A stretch of 64,000 nucleotides of DNA from Neisseriaceae bacterium. GTDB lineage: Bacteria; Pseudomonadota; Gammaproteobacteria; Burkholderiales; UBA11063. This document shows positions 18,390 to 24,647 of the stretch, piece after piece. Position 1 is the stretch's first letter. Each line of letters opens with the position of its first letter. The notes beneath the pieces are model-generated. The model was not told the origin of the DNA. It ran no database searches and saw only the letters and a list, made by a program, of their open reading frames with translations. The stretch lies in contig CANFGS010000008.1 of NCBI GenBank assembly GCA_947446595.1, forward strand, positions 1 to 64,000, read 5' to 3'. Made by a program: the position numbers and the translations under genes.

Positions 18390-18414
18390 AGGTGCAGATT
18401 GAGAAACTGCACCT
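18390..18414 (-). terminator. Hairpin overlapping the smc stop codon
   Basis: AGGTGCAG (18390-18397) pairs with CTGCACCT (18407-18414) around a 9-base loop. The minus-strand smc stop (TAG at 18413-18415) overlaps the first arm. There is no strong T-run after it on the minus strand, so termination is uncertain. The pairing itself is perfect over 8 bases. Confidence 0.4.
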
Positions 18415-21400
18415 AGTTTTTGCTTGCATCAACTAGGTTGACACTAACTGTAGTTGAGATACCTTTTTCTTGCATGGTAACGCCAACTAGTTGATTTGCA
18501 ATCTCCATAGTTAGGCGATTGTGTGAAATATATACAAACTGAGTATTGGCTGATAACTCCTGTACCAAACGACAAAAACGAACTGTATTAGCATCGTCAA
18601 GTGGAGCATCAACCTCATCAAGTAAACAAAATGGCGCAGGGTTTAGACTAAAGAGTGCAAAAATTAGACTCATTGCAGTAAGCGCTTTTTCACCACCAGA
18701 TAATAAATGTAGCGAAGTGTTTTTCTTACCTAGTGGTTCGGCATAAATTTGTAACCCAGCAAGCAATATATCAGTTTCGGTTAATTCTAATCTAGCATTC
18801 CCGCCACCAAATAAAATCTTAAAATAATGGTTAAAACTTTGACTAACCAGAGTGTAAGTATCATTTAGTAATCTACGGCTCTCACTATCAATTTGCCCTA
18901 TTGCTGATTCTAGTACCACACCAGCATCTCTAAGGTCATTTAACTGCATAACTAAATTATTATATTTTTGTTGTGACTCATCAAGATCCTCAATAGCCTT
19001 TAAATTTACTAAGCCCAAAGCTTCAATTTGGAGACGTAGTTTTTTTATGCCATCTTCTATTTGATTAAGAGTTAATTTATTAGAGTCTAATATTTCACTA
19101 ACATTATAATCAGCAACTTCTAATTCAGTTATATTCGCTTCTAGATTTTGAATCGACAATCTATACTCTTGTTCTTTTAAAATTAAAGCATTTAGTTTTT
19201 CTTCAAGAGCTGTTTTTTCAGAATTATGTTTATTTTGACTTTGCCTCATCTGGTTTTGTTTATCTAGTATTGCTTCACATACTGTTTTTTGATGTTGAAT
19301 ATTTTCTAAAACTAAATTTATTTTTTGTTGGAGAGAATTAATTTCATTGGTCTCGTCATTTTGTTTTAAAGACTCAATTTCACTATCAAGGCCTTCCATA
19401 CGACTATGAACCCTAGATACACTAGACTCTTTTTCAACTATTAATAGTGTTGATGATTTTAGTCTTTGTTCAAGTAATAGTCTATCTGAATTTAACTGTT
19501 TAATTAATAAATTTATATCATCTATCCTAGTCTTTATCTCTTGATAACTATTTTGAAGTTCCTGATGTGCTAGTTTAGCCAAATCATATTCATCTGCTAT
19601 TGATTTACAAAATTTAGTATCACTAATCGTCTTTGACTCAAGAATGCTTATCTCTTCATTTAATATAGCTATCTCTTTTTGTAACTGCTCTTTTTCTTGG
19701 TTCATCTTACTTATTTGTAATTCATTATTTAAATGAATTTGCTCTTGGCGAGTATATTCTAGCTGTAGGTTATGCACCTTGGTATTTAGGTTTGATAATA
19801 GATCCGCGTTTTCTTTTATTTCTAATTCTACAGCTACTATATTATTTAATAGTTTTTCATACCCAGTAATAATTTTATCGAGATGTTTTGATAATTTTGC
19901 TAGCTCTTCATTTAAACTCTTTAACTCATGCTGTTGTTCTAATACCTGAGAATTGCCAAAATCTGCATTAAATATTACGTATTTATCGGTTAATAAATGC
20001 CCATCAAGGGTTACAATCTTAGTATGACCATCTTTGAGAAATTCTCTAGCCTCTTTGTAATCCATGGCTACTATATATTCATTTAAAATCTCTATTAAAT
20101 CTGTACATTCATCACTCTTCACTACAAAAGCTAATGATTTTGGATCAATTTTAATTTTATCTTTACCATTACCAAACCATAGTGCAAGCTTATTCTCTGG
20201 TAATTTAAGTAAATCATCCAAATTATCCAATTTTGTAGCTGATAAAATATTACCAATTGCTACTTGGGTAGCAACTTCATAGCCTTTATTAACTGTAATC
20301 AAAGACCATAACAAACTACCTGGTGACTTCAAAATCTCATCTAACTTCTCTATCTTACCTGATTGTTTAATTAATTCATCAATGGTTACTATCTTGGAAG
20401 TAAGAGCTGAAATTTGACGTTTTAATTCATTAATGGTATTTTGCTCAGATGTTTTTTGCAACTCTAAATTTTGCCTTAAATCTTTTTTAGCAGCCAAATT
20501 AGTATTCAACTCTTTAATATCTTCGTTTAATTTACTAATCTCATCCTTAATTACTATACAACTATTATCAAGGGTAACTACCTTGGTGTCAAATCCATCT
20601 AATCGTTTAAGCAGATTTTGTAATTGATTTTGTTTATGGGAAAGAGTATTATTTTGTAAGTCTATTGAATGTTTTGTTGATTGTAATTTATTTGCTAAAT
20701 CTATTACTTTGGTATTTGATACCTTATAATCACTATCAATATTTGCAAAGTTTTTTGTAATTATCTCTAGCTCCGACTCCTTATCAATAAGAGTCTTTTG
20801 ATTATCAGCTAGCATTGTTTTCGTCTCATTAACTGCACCATTTAAAACCTCAATCTGAGATTTTATTTCAGGAACCGAAATTTTCAACTGCTCTTTTTCA
20901 TTAAGTAATTTTTGTATAGTCTGTTGATTATTTTTTGTACGTTCATCTAGTCTAGTTATATTCAAGCGTAATTCATTAAACTCTTCATCTAATAACTGTA
21001 ACTGCCTTTCTTCTATAGCTTTTTTTTGATATAAATCATTAAATTCATTCTGACTTAGCTGCGATAGATTGGAAATATTGGCTAATTTCTTTTGTAAATC
21101 ACTCATATTTCTATTTACTTCAAATAAAGATACACGTGCTGTATCTATCTTAACGATCAATTGCGTTAGCTGTAAATGTAGAAGTGTTGCTTTTAAATCC
21201 TGATATTCTTTTGCTGACTTAGCTTGACTTGTTAAATGACTAATACTATCTTCTAACTGCGATTTGATATCATCAAGCCTTACTAAGTTTTCTTTGGTAT
21301 ATTGAAGCCTTGATAATGTTTCTTTTCTCTTTTCTCTGTACTTAGATACCCCTGCAGCTTCTTCTAAGTACATCCGCAAATCTTCAGGTTTCGCATCAAT

Positions 21401-21856
21401 AATCCGCGAAATCATTCCTTGTTCGATTACTGCATAGCCCTTACTACCAACACCAGTACCTAAGAATAGCTCAGTAATATCTTTTTTTCTTACACTTTGA
21501 TTATTAATAAAATAACTAGATTCGCCATTTCTTGTTAGAACTCTTTTAATTGATATTTCAGAGTAGGTGTTCCAAGCACTTGATAATAATTTCTGGCTAT
21601 TATCAAAGATTAATTCCACACTTGCTCGAGATACTGCATGTCGATTGATAGAACCATTAAAGATAATATCTTGCATTGATTCACCGCGAAGCTGTTTGGC
21701 TGAAGATTCTCCAAGTACCCAACGCACCGAATCAATTACATTAGATTTACCACAGCCATTTGGCCCAACAATACCAACTAATTGGCCTTTGATATTAATT
21801 GTGGTTGGATCCACAAATGACTTAAATCCGGCCAATTTAATCTGTGATAATTTCAT
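18413..21856 (-). CDS. smc: Chromosome partition protein SMC
   Basis: The 1147-residue protein has the full SMC layout: Walker A GPNGCGKS at 31-38, long coiled-coil arms rich in Lys, Glu, Gln and Leu (about 165-1000), and a hinge near residues 500-640 (SPGSLLWSLITV, then AMDYKEAREFL). The C-terminal head carries the signature LSGGEK at 1052-1057 and Walker B LLDEVD at 1078-1083. It compacts and separates sister chromosomes together with ScpA and ScpB, which are not in the window. It starts 6 bases after ggt and probably shares its transcript. Confidence 0.95.
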   Translation of the reverse strand: MKLSQIKLAGFKSFVDPTTINIKGQLVGIVGPNGCGKSNVIDSVRWVLGESSAKQLRGESMQDIIFNGSINRHAVSRASVELIFDNSQKLLSSAWNTYSEISIKRVLTRNGESSYFINNQSVRKKDITELFLGTGVGSKGYAVIEQGMISRIIDAKPEDLRMYLEEAAGVSKYREKRKETLSRLQYTKENLVRLDDIKSQLEDSISHLTSQAKSAKEYQDLKATLLHLQLTQLIVKIDTARVSLFEVNRNMSDLQKKLANISNLSQLSQNEFNDLYQKKAIEERQLQLLDEEFNELRLNITRLDERTKNNQQTIQKLLNEKEQLKISVPEIKSQIEVLNGAVNETKTMLADNQKTLIDKESELEIITKNFANIDSDYKVSNTKVIDLANKLQSTKHSIDLQNNTLSHKQNQLQNLLKRLDGFDTKVVTLDNSCIVIKDEISKLNEDIKELNTNLAAKKDLRQNLELQKTSEQNTINELKRQISALTSKIVTIDELIKQSGKIEKLDEILKSPGSLLWSLITVNKGYEVATQVAIGNILSATKLDNLDDLLKLPENKLALWFGNGKDKIKIDPKSLAFVVKSDECTDLIEILNEYIVAMDYKEAREFLKDGHTKIVTLDGHLLTDKYVIFNADFGNSQVLEQQHELKSLNEELAKLSKHLDKIITGYEKLLNNIVAVELEIKENADLLSNLNTKVHNLQLEYTRQEQIHLNNELQISKMNQEKEQLQKEIAILNEEISILESKTISDTKFCKSIADEYDLAKLAHQELQNSYQEIKTRIDDINLLIKQLNSDRLLLEQRLKSSTLLIVEKESSVSRVHSRMEGLDSEIESLKQNDETNEINSLQQKINLVLENIQHQKTVCEAILDKQNQMRQSQNKHNSEKTALEEKLNALILKEQEYRLSIQNLEANITELEVADYNVSEILDSNKLTLNQIEDGIKKLRLQIEALGLVNLKAIEDLDESQQKYNNLVMQLNDLRDAGVVLESAIGQIDSESRRLLNDTYTLVSQSFNHYFKILFGGGNARLELTETDILLAGLQIYAEPLGKKNTSLHLLSGGEKALTAMSLIFALFSLNPAPFCLLDEVDAPLDDANTVRFCRLVQELSANTQFVYISHNRLTMEIANQLVGVTMQEKGISTTVSVNLVDASKN

Positions 21857-21862
21857 TAGAAA

Positions 21863-23578
21863 TCACTTTCCAATTGCGACACCCTCACGTCTTTTATCAG
21901 CAGCACCAATCCATCCAGTCTTAGTACGAAGGATATTTACTTCGCCACTTACTAGATCCCGCTCTTTAATTTCTTCCCCACGTTTATTCATATCTGGAGC
22001 TAATTTTAGCAAATCAGTACCTGATTCAAAAGTAGGTAGCGCATTAGTAGCACATAGATTTCCATAGTTTGAAGCCTGTAGTGGATTTTGCCCCATATCT
22101 AGCATCTGAATTAGACTTTTAGCTACATAACAAATGATTTGACTACCACCTGGAGAACCAGCTACAGCAGTTAAATTATTGTTCTTATCAAATACCAAAA
22201 CAGGTGCAATTGATGAACGTGGACGTTTTTTAGCTTCAACTCGATTAGCAATTGGTTTACCATCTTTCATTGATTCAAAAGAAAAATCAGTTAACTCATT
22301 ATTTAATAAAAATCCATCTACAAAGGCATGGCTACCAAATTGATTTTCTATCGTCACCGTCATTGATACTGCATTATTATCTTTATCGACAATCGCAATA
22401 GAAGTTGTCCCCGGTTTTTTATTATTTTGATCTGGTGCATAAGTTTTATCAATACCTTCAGGCACTCCAGGAGCTGTTGGAACACTCAGAGCCTTACTAG
22501 TAATTAATTTACTTCTCTTACTAATGTAGTTTTTATCAAGAAGACCACTAACCGGCTGTTTCACAAAACCTGGATCAGCAAGATATTGATTACGATCACT
22601 AAAAGCTAACTTACTAGCTTCTAAAAAATAATATACCCAATCCGGATTTTGTACATCACTAACATGTGACACATTACCATAAATTAATAATAATTCTTCA
22701 AGCGTAACCCCACCACTACTTGATGGAGGTACCGAACAAATTTTGTATTTATCACGATACCAACTACACACAGGTCTGTATGTAATTACTTTATACTTAG
22801 CTAAATCATCTAAATCATATAGTTTGGTATTAGCTTTTTTATTTATAGCTTCAACAATATCACGAGCTAACTCTCCATGATAGAAATCATCAGGATTATT
22901 AGCGATTCTTTTAAGACTTTTGGCATAAGATGGGTTTTTTATTATCGTACCGATTGGTTTTGGTCGATTTTTACTAGTATAGTATAATTCGCGAGCACCA
23001 TCTAGATTGGGTAATGAGTTTTTCTCAGACTCAAGTAGGCCATAAAGACGGGGGCTCAATGGATAGCCTTGTATTGCAAGTTGTATTGCTGGGTCAAATA
23101 GTTTTGACCAAGGAAGCCTACCTTGACGTTTATGCATTTCATAAAACAGTGCAACTTCCCCAGGAACTCCAATAGCATGTGCTGTCTTATATGCTATATC
23201 AAAAGGAAGTGCTTTACCGTCTTTATCCAAAAGCCAACTCGGATTTGCTGATTTTGGAGCTATTTCACGACCATCAAAAGCAAGTGTATGATGATTTTGA
23301 TAAGTAATAGCATACCCACCACCACCAAGCCCTGAACTTTGAGGTTCAGTTAGCCCAAGAACCAGCCCTGCTGCAATTGATGCATCAATTGCATTACCGC
23401 CTTCATCTAAAATAGTTTGGGCTGCTTTACTTGCCCATGGGTTATTGGTAACCACCATACTATTTTTGCCGGCTACTAGCTTTTTTTGCTCATAGACGGT
23501 TTTTACTTCAGGGGCAATGCTACTATCAACTGCATAAACTTTAGCTATAATAGTCAGTAAAATTAAGGCTTTTTTAAT
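21863..23578 (-). CDS. ggt: Gamma-glutamyltransferase with probable ATT start codon
   Basis: The periplasmic enzyme hydrolyses glutathione and transfers gamma-glutamyl groups. It is made as a precursor that cleaves itself before a Thr. The first ATG of the frame is at 23458, but the frame continues upstream to a stop and encodes a perfect signal peptide (KKALILLTIIAKVYA) plus the usual VAGKN lead-in. No ATG, GTG or TTG exists in that extension. ATT at 23578 lies 6 bases after AGGTGG. From this start the protein is 571 residues and the cleavage Thr of PG^TTS falls at 391, as in E. coli Ggt. The ribosome site overlaps the nemA stop, so the two are coupled. Confidence 0.85.
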   Translation of the reverse strand: MKKALILLTIIAKVYAVDSSIAPEVKTVYEQKKLVAGKNSMVVTNNPWASKAAQTILDEGGNAIDASIAAGLVLGLTEPQSSGLGGGGYAITYQNHHTLAFDGREIAPKSANPSWLLDKDGKALPFDIAYKTAHAIGVPGEVALFYEMHKRQGRLPWSKLFDPAIQLAIQGYPLSPRLYGLLESEKNSLPNLDGARELYYTSKNRPKPIGTIIKNPSYAKSLKRIANNPDDFYHGELARDIVEAINKKANTKLYDLDDLAKYKVITYRPVCSWYRDKYKICSVPPSSSGGVTLEELLLIYGNVSHVSDVQNPDWVYYFLEASKLAFSDRNQYLADPGFVKQPVSGLLDKNYISKRSKLITSKALSVPTAPGVPEGIDKTYAPDQNNKKPGTTSIAIVDKDNNAVSMTVTIENQFGSHAFVDGFLLNNELTDFSFESMKDGKPIANRVEAKKRPRSSIAPVLVFDKNNNLTAVAGSPGGSQIICYVAKSLIQMLDMGQNPLQASNYGNLCATNALPTFESGTDLLKLAPDMNKRGEEIKERDLVSGEVNILRTKTGWIGAADKRREGVAIGK

Positions 23579-23588
23579 TTCTCACCAC

Positions 23589-24647
23589 CTAATTTAATGT
23601 GGGGTAGTCAGTATATCCTATAGCTCCATCGCCATAAAAAGTTTCAGGTTTTGGCGTATTTAAATCACTATTTAATAACAACCTCTTTGTTAAATCAGGA
23701 TTTGAAATAAATAACTTCCCAAATGCTACCGCATCAGCATCTCCAGCATTAATCAATGACTCTGATGTAGCTTTTGTCAACATCTGGTTCATTATATAAA
23801 CCCCACCAAATTCTTTTTTTAGTTTTGCACCGATTGATTTGTCATCTTGTTTTTCCCGCGCGCAAATAAAAGCAATCTTACGTTTGCCAAGCTCACGTGC
23901 AACATAAGAAAACGTAGCTAACGGGTCAGAATCTCCCATTTTATGTTCATCACATCTTGGCGCTAAATGCATCCCTACACGATCAGGCCCCCATACAGAA
24001 ATAACTGCATCAGTTACCTCTAGTATAAGTCGCGCCCGATTTTCTAAACTACCACCATAAATGTCAGTACGTTTATTTGTAATATCTTGTAAAAACTGAT
24101 CTAATAAATAACCATTGGCACCATGAATTTCAACGCCATCAAACCCAGCTTTTTTAGCATTAGCCGCACCAAGACGATATGCTTCAACTATACCTGGTAT
24201 TTCATCAATTTCAAGTGCTCTTGGAACGACATAATCCTTCATCGGACGCACCAAACTTACATGTCCGCTAGGGGCTATAGCACTTGGTGCAACAGGTAGT
24301 TTACCATCTAAATAAATAGGATCTGAAATACGTCCAACATGCCATAATTGTAAAAATATCTTACCACCTTTTTTATGCACTGCTTCAGTTACTAGTTTCC
24401 ATCCCTCAACTTGTGCATCAGACCAAATACCCGGAGTATTTGGATAACCAACACCCATAGGGGTAACTGATGTTGCTTCAGCAAGTATTAAGCCCGCATC
24501 AGCTCTTTGGGCATAATACTCTGCCATTAAGGCATTAGGTACTCTATCCTTAATTGCGCGACACCTTGTAAGTGGTGCCATAATTATACGATTAGTTAAT
24601 TCTAAATCACCAACTTTGAGTGGCTTAAATAATATTGAATCTTGCAT
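23589..24647 (-). CDS. nemA: Old yellow enzyme family alkene reductase (NemA-like)
   Basis: The 352-residue FMN enzyme has the family landmarks in order: LTNRIIMAPLTRCRA near the start, AGLILAEATSV, PGIWSDAQVEGWK, LQLWHVGR, the HGANGYLLDQFL active-site segment, and R-T-D-x-Y-G-G-S-x-x-NR. It closely follows N-ethylmaleimide reductase, which reduces activated alkenes and electrophiles with NADPH in the cytoplasm. It is followed directly by ggt. The pairing with a glutathione enzyme suggests a shared role in handling electrophiles. Confidence 0.85.
   Translation of the reverse strand: MQDSILFKPLKVGDLELTNRIIMAPLTRCRAIKDRVPNALMAEYYAQRADAGLILAEATSVTPMGVGYPNTPGIWSDAQVEGWKLVTEAVHKKGGKIFLQLWHVGRISDPIYLDGKLPVAPSAIAPSGHVSLVRPMKDYVVPRALEIDEIPGIVEAYRLGAANAKKAGFDGVEIHGANGYLLDQFLQDITNKRTDIYGGSLENRARLILEVTDAVISVWGPDRVGMHLAPRCDEHKMGDSDPLATFSYVARELGKRKIAFICAREKQDDKSIGAKLKKEFGGVYIMNQMLTKATSESLINAGDADAVAFGKLFISNPDLTKRLLLNSDLNTPKPETFYGDGAIGYTDYPTLN

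Follow-up and report, generated by a model that had tools for sequence, protein, structure and literature searches.

Probable AUU start codon of a gamma-glutamyltransferase gene, and candidate AUH starts, in Aquella-like Neisseriaceae

The gamma-glutamyltransferase gene (ggt) of a Neisseriaceae bacterium of the genus Aquella is very probably translated from an AUU codon at position 23578 of the window analysed here, that is, the whole stretch of 64,000 nucleotides. A preliminary description of this DNA had already read the ATT as the start codon, and that reading is now supported by the conservation of the codon in two sister genomes and by the synonymous character of the differences in the leader that it opens. 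We document the sequence, its conservation, purifying selection on the leader, the strength of the Shine-Dalgarno (SD) sequence, and aligned replacements of AUG by AUH (AUU, AUA, or AUC) in other genes. AUU and AUA starts are already known as such; the novelty lies in the genes reported here and in the fact that one small clade has accumulated several of them.

The ggt gene and its leader peptide

Counted from the ATT, ggt occupies 21863..23578 on the minus strand and comprises 571 codons and a TGA stop. Downstream lies smc (18413..21856, minus strand; 1147 aa, identified from its own sequence), and upstream lies a NemA-like, or old-yellow-enzyme, gene (23589..24647, minus strand; NF007899, E=3.8e-107), whose TAG ends 10 nt ahead of the ATT and which is kept upstream of ggt in both sister genomes. 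The product matches PF01019 over profile positions 2-512 of 512 (E=4.6e-126) and TIGR00066 with E=3.6e-104 and 349 bits, slightly below the cut-off of 357.85; the nearest solved chain is 4y23_A. The motifs RPRSS and SPGGS are present, together with PGTTSIAIVD, in which the autoprocessing Thr (codon 22406..22408, minus strand) falls on residue 391, exactly where the earlier count from the ATT had placed the self-cleavage Thr. The Thr in its (T)T[SH] context and the SPGG motif, by which membership in the family was judged, are both present, and autoprocessing of the product is predicted.

In the ggt frame on the minus strand, a TGA (23584-23582) is followed by GAA, by the proposed ATT start codon (23578-23576), and by AAA AAA GCC TTA ATT TTA CTG ACT ATT ATA GCT AAA, and the frame continues through AGT to the first in-frame ATG (23458-23456). 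The 41 codons between the TGA and this ATG include no ATG, GTG, or TTG, as had been claimed, and a program limited to those three codons would choose the ATG, which has a poor SD. The 40-codon leader, running from the ATT to the last codon before the ATG (23459..23578, minus strand), has a hexamer coding score of +13.3 and encodes a signal peptide, IKKALILLTIIAKVYA, and a lead-in, VDSSIAPEVKTVYEQKKLVAGKNS. Judged by eye and by hydropathy, the signal peptide has the features of Sec export: a positive n-region (KK), a hydrophobic core of nine residues (ALILLTIIA, mean hydropathy 3.1), and small residues at -3/-1 (VYA before the likely cut). The preliminary description had called this signal peptide textbook; being short, it is acceptable rather than textbook. 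The product is probably exported. Gene finders limited to ATG, GTG, and TTG would trim this signal peptide and so misplace the enzyme in the cytoplasm. None of the other genes among the roughly 50 likely ones in the window has a long stretch resembling coding sequence before its first canonical start; an Rfam scan of the whole window returned no matches.

Proposed initiation at the ATT codon and its alternatives

The genus Aquella was represented by 23 genomes, including our own (G000) and two independently assembled sisters, the MAGs ZE-Oct18-46 (G001) and CE-Jul18-66 (G010). Read from the upstream stop codon, the junction is TAG-GTGGTGAGAA-ATT-AAA-AAA in our genome, TAG-GGATGAGAA-ATT-AAA-AAA in G001, and TAG-GTGGTAAGAA-ATT-AAA-AAA in G010; ATT-AAA-AAA itself does not vary among the three genomes, in contrast to the bases just before it, which differ through an indel and substitutions. 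Within the leader, our genome and G001 differ by five synonymous changes and one nonsynonymous change over 40 codons (nominal P=0.003), and our genome and G010 by four and one (nominal P=0.012) over the 25 codons that could be compared, the G010 gene being split over two contigs; both comparisons share our own sequence. The other two frames show 0-1 synonymous differences. Since ATT-AAA-AAA and the leader peptide are kept in two sisters and the leader differences are nearly all synonymous, we conclude that the leader is translated.

This pattern bears on two possibilities that the preliminary description had named as refuting its reading. The first, a sequencing error that hides an ATG, is ruled out by the presence of the ATT at the same place in G001 and G010. 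Together with its companion, a recent pseudogene whose true ATG has been lost or misread, it makes an extremely unlikely explanation: a single substitution would restore a canonical start, and both sisters are fragmented MAGs, but the same ATT recurs in three independent assemblies and nothing interrupts the frame of 571 codons, whose mature part shows 32 synonymous and 6 nonsynonymous differences. The second, initiation at ATG 23458, would leave the upstream stretch untranslated and the enzyme in the cytoplasm. That ATG is the first canonical start, and its Met, residue 41, is also where the TIGR00066 match sets in. We nevertheless consider it very unlikely, since synonymous differences in the leader frame only point to purifying selection upstream of it, its SD reaches no more than -1.7 kcal/mol, and relatives have an ATG-initiated leader there. 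In the remoter ggt copies of the genus (about 50-61% identity), the readable leaders have a canonical start, which is usually ATG and precedes the same point by about 37-47 codons, at a similar distance from TNNPW. The comparison of ggt starts among relatives that had been proposed as a check thus gives ATT in both sisters and canonical codons in the remoter copies. We also considered whether ribosomes might reach ggt from the NemA-like gene by readthrough or by a fixed frameshift; this is excluded by the frame relation, which differs between the sisters: the ggt frame is the upstream frame in G001 and lies one base off it in our genome and in G010.

The extended SD AGGTGGTGA (23582..23590, minus strand) matches AGGAGGTGA at 8 of 9 positions and shares bases with the upstream gene's stop codon; it includes the AGGTGG (23590-23585) that had been noticed 6 nt ahead of the ATT. 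SD energies were calculated with RNAduplex against the 16S tail GGATCACCTCCTT as read in Aquella oligotrophica, a search for the tail in our own MAG having found none. The predicted duplex amounts to -1.7 kcal/mol at ATG 23458 but to -11.7 at the ATT, and of 926 first-ATG sites in the genome no more than 3 do as well as the ATT. The SDs of the sister genes are weaker, at -8.7 kcal/mol in G010 and an ordinary -5.0 in G001, the latter a point against the AUU reading. Other near-cognate codons do occur in the leader frame (ATT at codon 6, CTG at codon 8, ATT at codon 10, and ATA at codon 11), and each is very unlikely as the start: none has a spaced SD, the CTG is CTA in G010, and the product would lose the KK n-region together with much the greater part of its hydrophobic core, the ATT at 23578 being the sole AUH codon that retains the KK. 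Taken together, the routes of initiation other than the AUU and the mini-ORF described below carry a small joint probability.

An out-of-frame mini-ORF, GTG GTG AGA AAT TAA (23574..23588, minus strand), spans the ATT, and the sisters have the variants ATG AGA AAT TAA and GTG GTA AGA AAT TAA. Ribosomes might therefore initiate at the GTG or ATG of this mini-ORF (GTGGTGAGAAATTAA here) and then either undergo +1 frameshifting or terminate at UAA and reinitiate one base back at the AUU, which would make the ATT a restart site or a passenger. All three genomes do have an NTG one or two codons before AGA-AAT-TAA, with a stop that overlaps the ATT. The start of the mini-ORF, however, is not fixed (GTG GTG, ATG, or GTG GTA) and lacks a suitably spaced SD of its own, AAU-UAA is not among the known sites of +1 slippage, the spacing of the SD is ideal for the ATT, and the AUH starts of murB, miaA, and the DUF1841 gene need no such device; we regard this route as unlikely. 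The mini-ORF is possibly a coupling element, or a chance occurrence.

For direct initiation at the AUU, we propose that the unusually strong and correctly spaced SD would hold the 30S subunit at the codon, where fMet-tRNA would be accepted although the codon matches at two positions only, and the overlap of the SD with the stop of the nemA-like gene may help through translational coupling. The product would begin fMet-KKALILLTIIAKVYA, be exported, and cleave itself before Thr391. We infer that output is low and IF3-sensitive. Pairing of AUU with the CAU anticodon is disfavoured by IF3 in vitro (PMC10158994), which counts against an AUU start in ggt. The gene would be one of several in the clade in which AUG has been replaced by AUH and which may still function thanks to a strong SD.

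Candidate AUH starts elsewhere in the genome

A survey of starts covered 1.54 of the 1.74 Mb of our genome, with 1347 non-overlapping ORFs of at least 90 aa, and 0.66 Mb of G010; coding sequence before the first canonical start was recognized by conservation in G010, hexamer usage, and SD position. At least 35 codons precede the first canonical start in 14 of the 1347 ORFs, several of which resemble broken genes. By this survey, ggt appears to be one of about nine AUH starts, a count for this genome alone rather than a measured enrichment over other genomes. The preliminary description had missed the others, the ATA of infC among them.

In some of these genes, AUH aligns with the AUG of relatives. 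In the DUF1841 gene (L112:1906-2337, contig C15; L258 in G001, L259 in G010), the start is ATA in our genome and in G010, with the SD AGGAG, whereas ATG stands at the same position in the sister G001, with the SD AGGAA, and in 18 of 18 other relatives examined; the apparent switch from ATG to ATA thus goes with an SD change from AGGAA to AGGAG, which is the expected direction. For murB (L137:16465-17454, contig C4; L224 and L225), our genome has ATA and the two sisters ATC, preceded in every case by AGGAG-N6; the start is ATG or GTG in 17 further members of the genus and not clear-cut in one. The start of miaA (L144:18962-19900, contig C7; L279 and L280) is ATA in our genome and both sisters, with the SD GGTGA, and the aligned codon in relatives is mostly ATG. 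infC begins with ATA in our genome (C20:26657, minus strand; L117:11131-11658) and in most genus genomes read (loci L061-L082), and with ATT in two, so that the gene for IF3 itself has a conserved AUH start. A Tet-like MFS transporter gene has ATT in our genome and in G010. In hflX and scpA, no canonical start precedes the conserved sequence, and the exact start codon is uncertain; these two genes and that for a class II aldolase probably have no usable canonical start, and murB, miaA, the DUF1841 gene, and the MFS gene have none. The aldolase gene (L143:18191-18973, contig C6; contig C6 and L188 in G010) has ATT, with a weak SD, where G010 has ATG, and its next canonical start lies 84 codons downstream; it may be decaying. 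An ArnT-like transferase gene is a weaker candidate. Family profiles reach upstream of the first canonical start in murB, hflX, miaA, infC, and the MFS gene.

Strong SDs are common among these genes. Seven of the eight AUH cases not found via their SD have an SD of -6.8 kcal/mol or lower, versus 138 of 926 ATG genes (P=1.3e-5), a P value that is optimistic because the start codons of hflX, scpA, and the MFS gene were partly picked with the SD in view. A tally of ATA, ATT, and ATC codons at AGGAG-N5-7 was discarded, as most of them are just the codon preceding an ATG.

Several long extensions (C20:7382, C27:10492, C18:2295, C15:40114, and C22:9479) look broken or repetitive and were not counted. 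The first four (L167, L174, L115, and L161) have 90-150 upstream codons without a canonical start and resemble interrupted surface-protein or acyltransferase genes. Separately, a threonine-synthase-like ORF of 106 aa (L112:1357-1675, contig C15, minus strand) has conserved upstream coding sequence that is cut by an in-frame stop and differs from G010 by a 3-base indel; it is perhaps a broken thrC.

An altered translation machinery was considered as a cause and set aside: the initiator tRNA looks normal, with a GGG/CCC anticodon stem, the uS9 tail (QFSKR) is ordinary, A. oligotrophica has a standard anti-SD, and IF3, checked for a striking clade-specific change, showed none. These comparisons revealed no cause of relaxed start selection, which might come from a low IF3 level, compensation by strong SDs, or drift in a genome of small size.

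Implications and comparison with known systems

That AUH starts cluster in one clade may amount to more than new members of a known phenomenon. We tentatively suggest, as a reading that is plausible but rather doubtful, that small-genome freshwater Aquella-like Neisseriaceae have relaxed start discrimination, with AUU, AUA, and AUC as regular minor starts (in at least about 0.6% of genes, murB and miaA being two of them); that switches from AUG to AUH, buffered by the SD, are tolerated far more than elsewhere; and that the genes concerned form a set under common control by the level of IF3. If the accumulation is real, the clade would offer a natural test of start-selection loosening, SD compensation, and shared IF3 control. 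The trimming described for ggt would likewise affect murB, miaA, hflX, infC, and others in the clade.

As an enzyme, the ggt product resembles E. coli GGT and B. licheniformis GGT (4y23) in its full-length match, Thr391, SPGGS, and N-terminal leader; Glu stands where E. coli GGT has Asn411, as it does by alignment in 4y23. The ATT start codon sets the present gene apart from these two. Among known AUU starts are those of E. coli infC and pcnB, examples of near-cognate initiation discriminated by IF3. ggt shares with them the AUU start, a canonical initiator tRNA, a low expected efficiency, and presumably IF3 sensitivity, but differs in that its product is probably exported and that a feedback logic is not evident. 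infC has an AUH start here as well (ATA), like the AUU of E. coli infC, whereas pcnB, AUU in E. coli, begins with ATG in the three relatives in which it is readable (G016, G021, and G015).

In S. aureus, AUU and AUA starts with extended SDs were demonstrated for infC, cvfC1, ccpN, and citZ by Ribo-Ret and reporters, and the reporters for the last three reached, in poor medium, about 10% of the output obtained with AUG (PMC13009471). The present genes are similar in their strong extended SDs, their conservation among relatives, and the shortness of the list; unlike the S. aureus cases, which are proven by Ribo-Ret and reporters, they are drawn from comparison alone, number about nine in a 1.7 Mb genome, and include two house-keeping genes, murB and miaA. 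Among 61,358 ancestral AUG starts of annotated genes, a single switch from AUG to AUU was counted in an earlier survey (PMC5622118). The combination of a weaker start codon with a stronger SD described in that study recurs in the DUF1841 gene. Against its single AUU switch stand several AUH starts in one clade, although annotation bias depresses the published count. If real, the accumulation would also suggest that AUG-to-AUH switching has been underestimated in the literature as a result of how genes are annotated.
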